From contig JAHBSW010000021.1 in the NCBI GenBank assembly GCA_019638935.1, positions 1 through 40,055 on the forward strand: a stretch of 40,055 nucleotides of DNA, in the 5' to 3' direction. Both the position numbers and the translations under genes were made by a program. This DNA comes from Cryobacterium sp. (lineage in GTDB: Bacteria; Actinomycetota; Actinomycetes; Actinomycetales; Microbacteriaceae). Each line of letters begins with the position of its first letter. Position 1 is the stretch's first letter. The notes under the pieces are model-generated. The model saw only the letters and a list, made by a program, of their open reading frames with translations, did not search any database and was not told where the DNA came from. This document shows positions 19,264 to 24,868 of the stretch, in pieces.

Positions 19264-21231
19264 TCACGTCATCGCTGTATAACTCTTCACAGTGACGGGC
19301 TGAACGGCGGCATTCGACCGGATGAGCGTGCTCGCCCGCACGGTGCGCCCGCGGGTGAGCGCAAGGCTCGTGGCGACGAGGCCGCCGAGTCCCCAGAGCA
19401 CGAGCGCCGCGATCGAACCGCCCGCGACCGCGCCGTTCACGACGCCCCGCAGGGCGGCGACGAGCGGCTCAACGGGCAGCACCCCGTGCACGGCATCGAG
19501 CAGGCCGGGAACGGTCGAGATGATCCCGGTGGCGAGCACGATGACGCCGATGACCATCGCGATGAAGCGTCCCGTGCCCCCGAACCAGACGAGCAGCGCC
19601 TGGTTGACGGCGGTGAAGGTGAGCGCGCCGAGCACGCTCAGGGCGACGAATCCGAACCCGGCGCCGACCGACAGCGATCCGCCGAGGGCGAGCAGCGTGC
19701 CGACGATCGCGCCCTGCGCCACCGCGACGCCGGCGGGCAGCGCGAACATGCGCAGCGCGAGCACGAACGACGGTCGCGTGGAGTCGAGCAGGCGCTTCGG
19801 CCGTGCGCGCAGCGCGATGAAGGTCGCGAGCGCGCCGAGCCAGAGCGCGAGCGCGGCGTAGAGCGGCAGGGCGGCCCCGCCGAAGCCGAGGGTGGGCTCG
19901 CCGGCGACGCCGACGGGCTGGGCGACGACCTTCGCGAGCTGCGTGCGCTCGGCATCCGTGTACGCGGGGATCGCGTCGACCGCCTCGGCGAGGCCGTCCG
20001 CGAGGCCGTGCGTGCCGGTCGCGATCTCGGTGGCACCGTCGGCGATGCCGGTGATGCCGACAGAGATTCCGGATGCTCCTGACGCGAGCCCCCGAATCCC
20101 GCTCGCGAGGTCGGAGGCGCCGGCGGCCACCTGGGCTGAGCCCTGGCCGAGCGGGGCTGCCCCGTCGGCGAGCTGGGCGATCCCTCCGACGAGGGCGGGG
20201 ACTCCACCCCCGGCGGCCGGGTCTGCGCCGGAGAGGGCGGCGGCGTAGCCGTTGGCGGTTCCGGCGTCGACGGCGAGCTGGCCGGCGGTGGTGGCGGTGC
20301 CGCCCGCGCCTGCCGCAAGTGCCGACAGTTCAGCGCACAGGGCTGATGCGGGGTCGGCGGTGCACTCGCTCGTGGCGAGCGCGCCGAGCTGTGCGGCGAG
20401 CGCGCCGAGCTCGCCCGCGACGGTGACCGAGCCGGCCGCGGCATTCGCGGTGAATCCGGCGAGGGTCGATACGGTGCCGGGGAGCGCGGCGGTCTGGGCC
20501 TTGAGTGCGGTCAATCCGCCCACGACACCGGCGACACCGTCGGTGTACTTGCGCAGTTCACCGGCGAAGGTCGCGGCACCTGACGCGGCCTGGCCTGCGC
20601 CTCCTGCGAGTTGCGACGCACCGTCCGCGAGCAGGCCCGCACCCTCGGCCAGCGAGGTCTGGCCCTCGGCAAGCTGCCCCGCACCATCGGCGGCGTCGCC
20701 GAGGTTCGAAGAGAGCGTGCCGAAGGAGAGGTAGATGTTGTCGAGGTACTGCTCGGTGAGCTGCTGCGACAGCACCGAGGTCGCTGCGGCGGTGATCGTC
20801 TGGCTGATGGTGTCGTCGATGAGGCGCGAGCGCGCGCTCAGCTCGACCTCGATCACGGCTCTCTCGGCGCTCGCGGCGTCGCCCGCGAACGACGTCGCGG
20901 CGGCGGAGAACCCGCTCGGAATCGTGATCACCGCGACGTACGCTCCGTTGTCGAGTCCGGCGCGCGCACCCGCCTCGTCGGTCATGACCCAGTCGTAGTT
21001 GGTGTCGATGTCGTCGCCGATGAGTCCTGCCGCGAGCTGTCGACCGAGCGGCACGAGCTGCCCGTCGAGCTCGACTGGTTCGTCGAGGTTGACGATGGCG
21101 CCGGTGACGGTGTCGAGCCGCTCGGCGGGGCTCCACAGCGACCACACGAGCACGCCCGCGATGGTCAGAGGCACCAGGATCACTCCGACGATGCGACGGA
21201 TGCGCCGCAACCGGCTGCTTCTCTCGGTCAT
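19264..21231 (-). CDS. YhgE/Pip family membrane protein
   Basis: 655-residue membrane protein of the YhgE/Pip (ABC-2-like) family. One helix at residues 11-30 (RIVGVILVPLTIAGVLVWSLW) leads into a large external region. Its middle is built of repeats such as LADGASQLAGGAGQAASGA and LASGASGI. At least five hydrophobic segments at the C-terminus, from LPLYAALALWLGALATFIAL on, form the membrane domain. Its ATG overlaps the stop of the MMPL gene upstream (ATGA), so the two are translated together. Homologues serve as phage receptors and in cell-surface export, often next to an ABC ATPase. Here the only ATPase-like sequence is the degenerate tail of the MMPL protein. A longer in-frame upstream extension lies within the MMPL gene and was discarded. 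Confidence 0.88.
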   Translation of the reverse strand: MTERSSRLRRIRRIVGVILVPLTIAGVLVWSLWSPAERLDTVTGAIVNLDEPVELDGQLVPLGRQLAAGLIGDDIDTNYDWVMTDEAGARAGLDNGAYVAVITIPSGFSAAATSFAGDAASAERAVIEVELSARSRLIDDTISQTITAAATSVLSQQLTEQYLDNIYLSFGTLSSNLGDAADGAGQLAEGQTSLAEGAGLLADGASQLAGGAGQAASGAATFAGELRKYTDGVAGVVGGLTALKAQTAALPGTVSTLAGFTANAAAGSVTVAGELGALAAQLGALATSECTADPASALCAELSALAAGAGGTATTAGQLAVDAGTANGYAAALSGADPAAGGGVPALVGGIAQLADGAAPLGQGSAQVAAGASDLASGIRGLASGASGISVGITGIADGATEIATGTHGLADGLAEAVDAIPAYTDAERTQLAKVVAQPVGVAGEPTLGFGGAALPLYAALALWLGALATFIALRARPKRLLDSTRPSFVLALRMFALPAGVAVAQGAIVGTLLALGGSLSVGAGFGFVALSVLGALTFTAVNQALLVWFGGTGRFIAMVIGVIVLATGIISTVPGLLDAVHGVLPVEPLVAALRGVVNGAVAGGSIAALVLWGLGGLVATSLALTRGRTVRASTLIRSNAAVQPVTVKSYTAMT

Positions 21232-24071
21232 GCTGTGTACACCTCGGCTTCGTGTCGGGCCTGAGCTTGTTCGCGGGCGGGGTCGTCGAGCGCGAGGGTC
21301 TCGACGGGAAGAGTGGGCGGCAGATGGGACTCGGCGGTGCCGTCGACGGTGGAGATCACCAGTGTCAGCGGCGGCGTGTTCTTCCGACGTCCGGCCTGGG
21401 CGCCGTCGACCTCGTTCACGGTGGCATTGCTCAGTGCCGCGCGAACCGCAGCGGCTTCGGCGGAGTCGCGCACGCTGTCGAGCCCGTCGATCATGAGGAT
21501 GCGGGGGCGCTCGGCGAGGGCGGTGGTCACGGCACGAGCGGAACCGCCCTCGATGGTGGCGATTCCGACCCGTGACCGCACGGCGGCCGCGCGCGCGGGC
21601 AGGAGCAGTCCGGTGACTTTGAGGGTGCCGGCATCCGGTGCAACGCGTCCCGCGATCGTGAGCAGCAGCGCCGTCGCCTGCACGGCCGACTCTCCCCGCA
21701 CGATGAGTGCACTGCCGGCGGGAACGGTGGTCGAGACATCCCGGTACAGCGCGGGGGAGCCGAGCGAGAGACCGTCGGCGACGACCGCTGCGGCGGATCC
21801 GGGTGACGGCCAGTCGGCGAGTTCGAGCTCGCGGCGAAGCGACTCGCCCTCGACGTCGACGTTGGGAATGTGGCGGTCGAGCCACGCGGGCATCCACCAC
21901 GCGCGCTCACCGAGCAGCGCGAGAATCGCGGGCATGAGCACCATGCGCACGAGGAACGCGTCGACGAAGACGCCGACGGCGAAGCCGAGCGCGATGGGTT
22001 TGATGTTCGTGTCGCCCTCGGGAACGAACGCCGCGAACACCGCGATCATGATGACCGCCGCGGCGGTGACGACGCGCGCCGAGCCCACGAAGCCGGTGCG
22101 GATCGAGCGCTGTGCGTCGCCCGAGTGCACGTAGTCCTCGCGGATGCGCGAGACCAGGAACACCTGGTAGTCCATCGCGAGTCCGAAGAGCACACCCATG
22201 AGGACGATGGGCATGAAGCTGATGACGGGGCCTTCGCGGGTCACGTGCAGCAGCTCGGCGAGCCAGCCGTACTCGAACACGAGCGTCGTCACACCGAAGG
22301 CGGCTGCGACGCTGAGCAGGTAGCCGAGCGCGGCCGTGATGGGCACCCAGATCGACCGGAACACCATCGTCAGCAGCACGAGCGACAGGCCGACGACGAG
22401 CAGGCCGAAGGGCAGCAGCGCGCCGGCGAGCTTGTCCGACACGTCGATGCCGACCGCCGTGAACCCGGTCACCGCGATGCTGACGCCGTACTTCTCCTGA
22501 AGTTCGTCGTGCAGGCTCCGGATGTCGGAGACGAGCTGTTTGGTCCCCTCCGAGTCCGGCCCGCCGACCGGAACCACCTGCACGATCCCGGTGTCCGCGG
22601 TCAGGTTCGGCGTCGCGAGGGGAACGCTAGCCACCCCCGGCAGGGCCTCGAGTTCGCGTTTCAGGTCGTCCATGAGGCCGAGCGGATCGGTGCTCGTGAT
22701 GATCGAGGTGGTGACGATGAGGGGGCCGTTGTAGCCCGGGCCGAAGTGGTCGGACACGAGGTCGTAGGTCACTCGCGCCGACTCGCTCTCGGGCAGCGCG
22801 CCCGCGTCGGGCAGGGCGAGGCGCAGGCTCAGGGCGGGTGCCGCGACGAGCAGCAGCCCCGTGACGACGGTGACGATGCTCACGATCGGGCGCCTGGTGA
22901 CGGTCGACACCCAGCCGGCGAAGAAGCGAGTGGCACCGGATGGGCGGGGCTGAGCGGCCGCCACCTCGGGTGAGCCGGTGGCGGTGGCCGCGGCATCCGT
23001 CGCCGTGTCGCTGCCCTTGCGTCGACGAGCGAACCAACGAGCAACTCGCGCCTTCGGCCGCAGCCGCTCGCCCGCGAAGCCAAGCAGCGCGGGGGTGAGT
23101 GTGAGCGCGACGAGAACGGTGAGCCCGACGGCGATGGCGGCCCACGAGCCCATGGTCGCGAGAAAGGGGATGCCGGCGACAGAGAGTCCGAAGAGGGCGA
23201 TCATGACGGTGAGCCCGGCGAAGACCACGGCTCCGCCGGCGGTCGCGACGGAGCGGGCCGCGGCCTCCTCGGTGCTGACGACACTGTCGGCGAGCAGCTC
23301 ACGGTAGCGCGACACGATGAAGAGCGAGTAGTCGATTCCGACCGCGAGGCCGAGCATGAGAGCCAGCAGCGGTGTCGTCGACGAGATCGGGCCGAGTGCG
23401 GATGCCGCGAAGATGAGGCCGATCGACGACCCCACGCCGACGAGCGCGGTCACGAGCGGCAGACCCGCGGCGAGCAGCGACCCGAGGGTGAGAGTCAGCA
23501 CGAGGAGTGCGACGAGCAGGCCTACGCCCTCGGTGATCGTGATGGCCGGCATCTTCTGGGCGAAGAGCTGGCCGCCGAGCACCGCCTGGGCGTCGGCCGG
23601 CAGGGCCGCGTCGAGGCTGTCGGCGATCGCCGCGAGAGCTGTCTTGGTGTCGTCGGTGATGTCGAACTGCCCGCCGTCGAGCTGCAGCGAGATGATCGCG
23701 GCGTCGCGGTCGGCGTCGACCATCTCGCCCGTCTCCACGGCGAAGGGCGACATCGCGATGCTCATCTGGTCGAGGTCGACCAGGTCATCGATCGCGGACT
23801 CGATCGCGCTCACGACGCGAGGGTCATCGATGCCGTCGGGGGCGACGATGACGATCTGCGCGGTTGCACCGGCCACCTGGGGGAACGTCGCCGACAGCGA
23901 GTCGAGCGCTTGCTGCGATTCGGTGCCGGGGATCGAGACCGAGTTGTCGAGACCCTGGCCGATGGTGAGGGCGAGGGTGCCGATGATCGCGAGCAGCACG
24001 ATCCAGGCGCCGACGACGAGTCTGCGGCCGCGGTAGGCGGCGCGGCCGAGCGAGTAGAGGAAGGATGACAT
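21228..24071 (-). CDS. MMPL-family RND transporter with C-terminal degenerate ABC-ATPase-like domain
   Basis: 947-residue transporter. Residues 1 to about 735 are a standard MMPL/RND pump: an N-terminal helix (LVVGAWIVLLAIIGTLALTI), a first external domain, a helix bundle with GLAVGIDYSLFIVSRYRE, a second external domain, and a second bundle with GLAMDYQVFLVSRIREDY. MMPL proteins move lipids or hydrophobic molecules using the proton gradient. From about residue 759 there is an extra domain that reads like an ABC nucleotide-binding domain (LYRDVSTTVPAGSALIVRG, LLLTIAGRVAPDAGTL). Its Walker A is GESAVQAT (lacking Gly-Lys) and its Walker B-like segment is RILMIDGLDSV. Start ATG 24071 has a GGAG site. 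The gene is coupled to the Pip gene and divergent from tetR. Confidence 0.88.
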   Translation of the reverse strand: MSSFLYSLGRAAYRGRRLVVGAWIVLLAIIGTLALTIGQGLDNSVSIPGTESQQALDSLSATFPQVAGATAQIVIVAPDGIDDPRVVSAIESAIDDLVDLDQMSIAMSPFAVETGEMVDADRDAAIISLQLDGGQFDITDDTKTALAAIADSLDAALPADAQAVLGGQLFAQKMPAITITEGVGLLVALLVLTLTLGSLLAAGLPLVTALVGVGSSIGLIFAASALGPISSTTPLLALMLGLAVGIDYSLFIVSRYRELLADSVVSTEEAAARSVATAGGAVVFAGLTVMIALFGLSVAGIPFLATMGSWAAIAVGLTVLVALTLTPALLGFAGERLRPKARVARWFARRRKGSDTATDAAATATGSPEVAAAQPRPSGATRFFAGWVSTVTRRPIVSIVTVVTGLLLVAAPALSLRLALPDAGALPESESARVTYDLVSDHFGPGYNGPLIVTTSIITSTDPLGLMDDLKRELEALPGVASVPLATPNLTADTGIVQVVPVGGPDSEGTKQLVSDIRSLHDELQEKYGVSIAVTGFTAVGIDVSDKLAGALLPFGLLVVGLSLVLLTMVFRSIWVPITAALGYLLSVAAAFGVTTLVFEYGWLAELLHVTREGPVISFMPIVLMGVLFGLAMDYQVFLVSRIREDYVHSGDAQRSIRTGFVGSARVVTAAAVIMIAVFAAFVPEGDTNIKPIALGFAVGVFVDAFLVRMVLMPAILALLGERAWWMPAWLDRHIPNVDVEGESLRRELELADWPSPGSAAAVVADGLSLGSPALYRDVSTTVPAGSALIVRGESAVQATALLLTIAGRVAPDAGTLKVTGLLLPARAAAVRSRVGIATIEGGSARAVTTALAERPRILMIDGLDSVRDSAEAAAVRAALSNATVNEVDGAQAGRRKNTPPLTLVISTVDGTAESHLPPTLPVETLALDDPAREQAQARHEAEVYTA

Positions 24072-24096: not shown

Positions 24097-24144
24097 ATAC
24101 ACCGATGTATTCGATACACAAATGTATTCGATACACTGGTGTAT
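24097..24144. promoter_or_regulatory. Triple palindromic operator between the MMPL and TetR genes
   Basis: Three 14-bp palindromes of the form ATACAC-NN-NTGTAT-like start at 24097, 24114 and 24131, an exact 17-bp period, separated each time by TCG. The copies are ATACACCGATGTAT, ATACACAAATGTAT and ATACACTGGTGTAT. The site lies in the 110-bp gap between divergent genes, one of which encodes a TetR repressor, so it is the probable autoregulatory operator. Confidence 0.8.
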
Positions 24145-24181
24145 CTCAAGCCGGGAGTAGTCTTCACAGGGAGGTGCCAGC

Positions 24182-24868
24182 ATGACCGATACGACCGAGA
24201 CGGACGCCGATGTCGTCGTCGACTCCGCGCGCCGCCAGAGGACTCGCCAGCGACTCATGGATGCCGCGTTCGAGGTGTTCGCGGAGCAGGGCGTGCATGC
24301 GGCCGCGATCGAGACGATCGCCGAGCGCGCCGGATTCTCGCGGGGCGCGTTCTACTCGAACTTCGAGACCAAGTTCGAGCTCTTCATCGCGCTGGCCGAG
24401 CGGGAGAACGCGATGCGGTTGGAGCGCCTGCACGAGCTCGTGGCGGGGCTGCCGTCGGGCTTCGAGTTTCCGCAGGGCGTCGACGAGATCGCTGAACTGG
24501 TGGAGAAGTTCCTCTCGGTCGATGCGGGCGGCGCGACCTGGTGCCTGATCCTGGGCGAGTTTCGGATGCTCGCGCTGCGCGATCCCGACACCGCCCGGCA
24601 GTTTCTCGAGTTCCAGCGGCGTCTCGACGGCGAGCTCGGCGCGATGCTGGCCGCCACCATCGGCCAGCTCGGCATGGAGTTCACGATCGCGCCGGTCGAG
24701 TTCGCGCGCCTCGCGGCGGTCGTCTACGAGGCAGCCGTGCAGGAGTCGATCCTCTCAGGCGAGCCGACGATGCTCGCGCGCGAGTCACTGCCGAAGCTCG
24801 TGCAGGCCTTCACCCGAGCTGCTGGCCCGGAGGCCGAAGGCCGTCTCGAAACCAAAGCCCACGAATAA
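24182..24868 (+). CDS. TetR-family transcriptional regulator
   Basis: 228-residue regulator with the TetR helix-turn-helix at about residues 20-65 (QRLMDAAFEVFAEQG, IAERAGFSRGAFYSNFETK). The ligand domain that follows is helical and unassigned. It is divergent from the MMPL-Pip genes, with three palindromic operators in the gap. It very likely represses that pair and itself, with release by a transported or membrane-active compound. ATG 24182 has a strong GGAGGTG site. The last residues (GPEAEGRLETKAHE) are encoded by a copy of the intergenic repeat, so the original C-terminus has been replaced or extended. The SDR gene starts 18 bases downstream, probably in the same transcript. Confidence 0.88.
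   Translation: MTDTTETDADVVVDSARRQRTRQRLMDAAFEVFAEQGVHAAAIETIAERAGFSRGAFYSNFETKFELFIALAERENAMRLERLHELVAGLPSGFEFPQGVDEIAELVEKFLSVDAGGATWCLILGEFRMLALRDPDTARQFLEFQRRLDGELGAMLAATIGQLGMEFTIAPVEFARLAAVVYEAAVQESILSGEPTMLARESLPKLVQAFTRAAGPEAEGRLETKAHE
24821..24854. repeat. Palindromic repeat copy within the tetR 3' end
   Basis: The sequence GGCCGAAGGCC then GTCTCGAAACCA matches the centre and right arm of the repeat family. It is inside the coding region and supplies the regulator's last dozen residues. Confidence 0.65.

Follow-up and report, generated by a model that had tools for sequence, protein, structure and literature searches.

A degenerate ABC NBD-like domain fused to an MMPL pump and linked to a YhgE/Pip gene in Cryobacterium and its relatives

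The last ~190 residues of an MMPL transporter encoded in a 40,055-nucleotide stretch of DNA from Cryobacterium sp. (hereafter, the window) are supported, by profile comparison, as a degenerate homologue of the nucleotide-binding domain (NBD) of ABC transporters. Our analysis indicates that this tail is most likely the NBD-like partner that belongs to Pip itself, now fused to the MMPL pump and maintained by purifying selection. We further propose, with a probability of roughly 55%, that the TetR, MMPL-NBD and Pip genes encode one transport complex, in which the pseudo-NBD would tether an ABC-2-like Pip protein to a pump driven by protons.

The fused gene and its ABC-like tail

The features of the locus are collected in Table 1. 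The MMPL-NBD gene and the YhgE/Pip gene share the ATGA at 21228-21231, which holds the stop of the former and the start of the latter; the fusion, its coordinates and this overlap are as the first-pass annotation, made by reading the letters of the window, had given them.

Table 1. Coordinates of the features of the MMPL-NBD/Pip locus in the window.
Feature	Position	Strand	Basis or remark
YhgE/Pip gene, 655 aa	19264..21231	-	directly 3' of the MMPL gene
MMPL-NBD fusion gene, 947 aa (947 codons), ATG at 24071	21228..24071	-	
MMPL pump core, residues 1-741	21849..24071	-	PDB match and invariant Asp-Tyr pairs
Linker, residues 728-758, with DVEG and ADWP motifs	21798..21890	-	
Predicted degenerate ABC NBD-like domain, residues 759-947	21231..21797	-	hhalign
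Walker A position, GESAVQAT, no Lys	21672..21695	-	
AGR motif	21645..21653	-	Arg in 80 of 81 rows of the tail alignment
Walker B position, ILMIDGLD	21477..21500	-	
Putative operator, three tandem 17-bp palindromic copies	24097..24147	.	between the TetR and MMPL genes
TetR-type regulator gene (presumed type), divergent from the MMPL gene	24182..24868	+	ORF list

The first ~741 residues of the fused protein constitute a full MMPL pump, for which the Pfam MMPL model scores 265.2 bits in two stretches, over its cut-off. The closest solved relative of this core is MmpL3 (PDB 7nvh), which matches residues 8-733 with an E-value of 5.3e-53. The pairs D247-Y248 and D634-Y635 are invariant in a 46-row alignment (A5), and we take them to be the proton-relay residues, after MmpL3. 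The core match, the two MMPL stretches and the Asp-Tyr pairs are thus shared with MmpL3 and the MMPL pumps of the RND type; in contrast, the match to MmpL3 stops at residue 733, where the last ~190 residues of the present protein resemble an ABC NBD, and we know of no Pip partner of MmpL3. In the linker, positions P9, D12, E14 and G15 of the tail alignment are invariant in its 81 rows, and the DVEG-like part is also present in MMPLs that have no tail.

An in-frame tail of more than 150 aa was found in 99 of the 106 distinct relatives that we fetched (window included; five repeat loci, L017-L021, were dropped from the set), a proportion that is not a prevalence, since these relatives come mostly from the top of the match list and the seven tail-less ones were chosen for their short frames. 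The tails fall into a short class (51, including the window type) and a long class (48), and the long-class tails retain a degenerate helical part that is missing from the short class. Four genomes of the same genus (L114, L115, L071 and L081) carry tails of the long class; that of the window belongs to the short one.

When the window tail is searched alone, its matches are weak: Pfam ABC_tran gives an E-value of 0.012, below the cut-off, and NCBIfam MlaF one of 3.7e-5, far below the cut-off. The first-pass annotation had read residues 759-947 as an ABC NBD-like domain and had named a profile-profile comparison as the way to check it. With hhalign, the 81-row tail alignment matches seven canonical ABC ATPases taken from the fetched loci with a probability of 98.1 % and an E-value of 1.2e-13, against 0.09 for one unrelated control protein, the neighbouring TetR, and the reading holds. 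A profile built from the 51 short tails matched 476 PDB sequences at E <=1, the best 60 of which are ABC proteins. The profile of the 48 long tails matched EcfA at 1.8e-11 over profile positions 34-248 of 271, and the 60 PDB matches listed for it are all ABC proteins; the assignment of the long tails to the ABC family comes from these profile searches, because ABC_tran matches just 6 of the 48 at E <=1. We also considered other P-loop families and rejected them: AAA-type models match some tails, PF00004 for instance 13 of the 51 short ones, versus 27 of 51 for ABC_tran (best E-value 2.4e-7), and the PDB matches listed for both profiles are ABC proteins.

The motifs of the domain have been lost to different degrees. 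The hhalign path covers Walker A, skips ~50 columns and picks up again at Walker B, and in the comparison of the short tails with the canonical ABC alignment (A6) these skipped columns hold the helical subdomain and the signature. The Walker A Lys is not in the window copy and is present in 4 of the 81 rows, and the LSGGQ signature is found neither in the window copy nor in any of the 51 short or 48 long tails. These two absences had already been noted in the first reading of the sequence, to which we add that the helical subdomain and the catalytic Glu are gone from the window tail as well. The Walker B Asp is kept in the window copy (ILMIDG) and in 78 of the 81 rows and the Asp three positions after it is present in 74 of them; no row has the catalytic Glu after the Walker B Asp (0/81). 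The likeness to ABC NBDs such as MlaF and EcfA consists of profile homology over the core with aligned Walker A and B positions, whereas the window copy differs from them in lacking the Walker A Lys, the signature, the catalytic Glu and the helical subdomain and in being covalently joined to an RND-type pump.

It is important to note that GxxxxGK[ST] is kept in 6 of the 51 short tails and in 4 of the 80 named tails described below, each time at the Walker A place, and in none of the 48 long tails. The fused tails of this type are those of loci L143, L144, L160, L169, L026, L029, L030, L036, L038 and L065. Since the motif survives in some tails, not all members of the group need be dead, and nucleotide binding may persist in those that keep it.

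Distribution of the fusion and linkage to YhgE/Pip

Relatives of the whole protein were found at an E-value of 1e-60 in 180 of 199 Microbacteriaceae genomes, tail-less paralogues included, and at least 11 of 21 genomes of this family hold a tail-bearing MMPL. A single short-tail pattern was also run against 84,980 species, each represented by one genome, and gave 283 relatives, 80 of which were kept (the named loci); the tail is in frame in all 80. The survey of MMPL relatives for the same tail, put forward in the first-pass annotation, thus found it conserved both here and among the fetched relatives. The genera represented by the named loci include Rathayibacter, Plantibacter, Leifsonia, Cellulomonas, Promicromonospora and Saccharopolyspora, together with a metagenome-assembled genome of the Microthrixaceae, and the fused cassette is present in eight Saccharopolyspora loci and one Halopolyspora locus. 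In a sample of the phylum, 9 of 296 genomes have a match to A4 at 1e-15; four of these matches are separate frames (255-316 aa) and five are fused, the latter in the genome of the window itself, in three others of its family and in G652 of the same class. With five fused cases in 296 phylum genomes, nearly all from its own family, the fusion is lineage-bound, with few distant cases, which come from the named-locus scan. A plasmid origin was rejected: 33 plasmid records match at 1e-60, and none of them covers 80 % of the query. As a minor point on the records, those labelled Sphaerisporangium cinnabarinum and Cellulosimicrobium funkei (L191 and L193) are identical in 80 tail residues, and the former may be mislabelled.

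The N-terminal domain of the Pip protein of the window is recognised by TIGR03061 (109.6 bits, over the cut-off of 96.15), and the C-terminal model TIGR03062 gives 64.6 bits (E-value 9.1e-18) versus a cut-off of 102.2. The protein has seven stretches of xxxLxxG heptad repeats and an ABC-2-type membrane domain (PF12698, ABC2_membrane_3; 33.4 bits, cut-off 31.6). In every one of the 166 distinct tail-bearing loci (the pool of 99, 80 and 5, that is 184, minus repeats), a Pip N-terminus lies no more than 100 nt from the MMPL stop, with a median distance of 14 nt, whereas none of 35 further MMPL loci from the family, two of them in the genome of the window, has one in the fetched flanks (up to ~3 kb). 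Thirty-three of these 35 control proteins have fewer than 150 residues beyond the aligned pump; the remaining two, L281 (only its first half aligned) and L313 (no blastp match to the query), have frames shorter than 780 aa and no tail match. Pip is likewise not near any of the seven tail-less MMPLs fetched earlier (0/7). The linkage of tail and Pip, which the first reading had proposed to survey, is conserved.

Separate Pip partners and the origin of the tail

Special attention was given to the unfused relatives of the tail. Twenty loci were chosen among the best unfused rows of the long-tail profile search, of which 19 proved unfused and one (L238) was another fusion; an NBD-like ORF stands directly before the Pip gene in all 19. 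Their products have GxxxxGK[ST] or GxxxxGR[ST], they have no LSGGQ, and most carry DD at Walker B. They match the canonical ABC NBDs at an E-value of 1.2e-27 (18 of the 19 aligned), and with Pfam, four of eight examined match ABC_tran (1.2e-10 to 0.0086) and four have no ABC match. What they share with the tails is the hhalign similarity (5.2e-27) and the same position before Pip; they are unlike the tails in being free-standing, in keeping the helical region and in often keeping Walker A.

In the reverse direction, an NBD-like ORF stands upstream of each of 20 Pip genes from the family that have no fused MMPL before them, 16 of these ORFs being detected at the first HMM pass and the full 20 after an iteration that took in true ABC ATPases too. 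For 20 Pip genes sampled across the phylum, such an ORF is adjacent in 11 and not found in 8, and one contig is too short. Six of these eight are tandem Pip genes of distant members of the phylum (L270-L273, L275 and L276). The NBD-like group directly before YhgE/Pip includes L219-L237, L239-L264, L266-L268, L277 and L278, many of them without the Walker A Lys, and we know of no group name for it. The earlier statement that YhgE/Pip usually pairs with an active ABC ATPase is accordingly sound as to an NBD-like partner, but "active" was an overstatement, as this partner is divergent, has no LSGGQ and shows a Walker A of GK[ST] or GR[ST] form or none that can be recognised. Nor need the degeneration of the tail be a result of the fusion, as had been suggested, because the unfused partners also show it.

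The origin of the tail was approached with FastTree trees with local support, built on subsets. The pump-core tree has 79 rows: 29 short (23 of the 51, and 6 of the 80 named), 24 of the 48 long, 25 tail-less and one other. In this tree, the sampled tail-bearing MMPLs form one clade (99) with one loss, L122 (genome G096), which is tail-less inside the clade and whose 9.2 kb contain no Pip, likely a co-loss of tail and Pip. The NBD tree holds 18 of the 51 short tails, 18 of the 48 long ones, 35 separate NBDs and seven ABC proteins; short and long tails group together with a support of 88, which is below the 95 mark, and are nested among the Pip-partner NBDs, and the canonical ABC proteins stand apart from both (99). 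The Pip tree (23 short, 22 long, 50 with a separate NBD, 9 without an NBD and one other) puts the short-type Pips in one clade (99). Besides two Pips with a separate NBD, its smallest starred set with both fused types, of 48 rows, takes in one further row (L238 or similar), and two changes are required for the long type, so the Pips of the fused type are not cleanly apart. The origin of the tail as Pip's own partner is most likely because Pip accompanies the tail in 166/166 loci versus 0/35 controls, because the pumps form one clade and because 19/19 unfused relatives stand before Pip.

Selection on the tail was estimated with NG86 in 19 hand-picked pairs, one of which was dropped as saturated. 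In the 18 pairs with finite dS, the dN/dS of the tail ranges from 0.04 to 0.49, values that are rough where dS >1, as in several pairs. From this range, we conclude that purifying selection acts on the domain, though less tightly than on the pump, as dN/dS is higher in the tail than in the pump core in 14 of the 18.

A possible complex, its regulator and the alternatives

The product of the gene divergent from the MMPL gene is one that we call TetR-type from its sequence, and a homologue of it is found divergent beside the MMPL gene in 73 of the 80 named loci. The intervening region of the window contains 17-bp copies of the ATACACNNNTGTATTCG type (ATACAC-N3-TGTAT type), 100, 88 and 71 % alike, which form overlapping palindromes and are likely an operator, judging by their sequence and placement. 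A palindrome like ATACA-N4-TGTAT is present upstream of MMPL in 63 of the 80 named loci (two have no upstream region), versus 0.065 loci on average when the upstream stretches were shuffled 200 times and 0/78 for stretches inside the gene. The TetR gene and this common palindrome would be further parts of the MMPL-NBD/Pip cassette. In Table 2 of a study of Saccharopolyspora hirsuta exposed to cholesterol for 24 h (PMC9782250), a gene annotated as YhgE/Pip is up 3.82 and one annotated as MMPL is up 3.33; the two have neighbouring locus tags and are identified here by that annotation.

We propose that the ancestral state, found in many actinobacteria, would be a Pip protein, ABC-2-like and with a long heptad-repeat part, that works with a cytoplasmic, NBD-like partner whose gene stands immediately upstream. 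In a single lineage, this partner would have become the C-terminal part of a proton-driven MMPL pump, where the fused pseudo-NBD may act as a clamp or gate that keeps Pip beside the pump. Energy would come from the proton-driven MMPL, with Pip serving as an extracytoplasmic conduit or in the hand-over of the substrate, and TetR would free expression of the MMPL-NBD and Pip genes when a hydrophobic or lipid-like compound turns up. Since the window copy is without the residues for ATP hydrolysis, the motor is likely the proton-driven pump, with the domain in the role of a clamp or gate, and a single complex is suggested by the fusion of the partner to MMPL and its retention with Pip and a TetR switch. 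In relatives, a separate NBD-like partner is found beside the same Pip, which would mean that transporters of two kinds have been combined in a single machine. In ABC transporters, the helical subdomain is part of the groove that binds the coupling helices; because the short tails lack it, docking would not be canonical and the contact would probably be unlike the usual one in that groove. Against a complex, we count the faster change of the tail relative to the core, the survivors of GxxxxGK[ST], the fact that no more than 11 of 20 Pip genes in the phylum sample are paired with an NBD, the unclean Pip tree and a linkage that is genetic only. The stronger version, a hybrid RND-ABC machine in which an ABC-2-like Pip permease would be driven by proton flow in MMPL instead of by ATP hydrolysis, is a tentative proposal.

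While its parts are known, the MMPL-NBD/Pip combination and the Pip-partner NBD family behind it seem to be new: among the literature matches listed, no title or opening of an abstract describes an MMPL-NBD fusion or an MMPL-Pip system. One paper among these matches, PMC3924187, contains both MmpL and phage infection protein. The Pip of the window resembles YhgE/Pip and EsaA/YueB in its TIGR03061 score and its heptad repeats (TIGR03929, EsaA, matches at 2.4e-12 but below its cut-off), and differs from them in its link to an MMPL pump. EsaA is a component of type VII secretion, and in Firmicutes YhgE/Pip is associated with phage infection; to our knowledge, the function of YhgE/Pip is not settled. 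An NBD-like partner, together with the fused form that ties Pip to MMPL, makes this function testable: the fusion names partners, hints at the export of a lipid-like compound and points to a regulator. If the proposed complex exists, an ABC motor domain would have been converted into the coupling element of a pump that draws on a different energy source.

Among the other explanations, the one that survives best, though we hold it improbable, is that the tail is a sensor of a nucleotide or small ligand that gates MMPL or Pip, binding ATP or another ligand without turnover. The retention of the Walker B Asp and of the Asp three positions after it is consistent with such a role, as are the GxxxxGK[ST] at the Walker A place of a minority of short tails and the GK or GR of many separate partners, but the window copy has no Walker A Lys and the long tails never have the motif. 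A lower probability is given to the idea that the fusion does no more than keep NBD and pump in equal amounts and have them inserted together, the domain serving Pip as before while ATP is turned over at another NBD that is not linked. The separate NBD-like partners do show the domain to be Pip's, but the genome of the window has a single TIGR03061 match and, by this model, no second Pip cassette. Slightly less probable still is a dispensable remnant, left when an NBD gene came to be read in frame with MMPL, to which the lost catalytic motifs and helical subdomain and the faster change of the tail would conform; a dN/dS that does not exceed 0.49 in any of the 18 pairs, the near-invariant residues, the retention of the tail in all sampled members of the clade but one and the constant company of Pip argue against it. 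Finally, a chimeric assembly or an annotation artefact, in favour of which we found nothing, is rejected as extremely improbable, given that the tail is in frame in 99/106 fetched relatives and 80/80 named loci.
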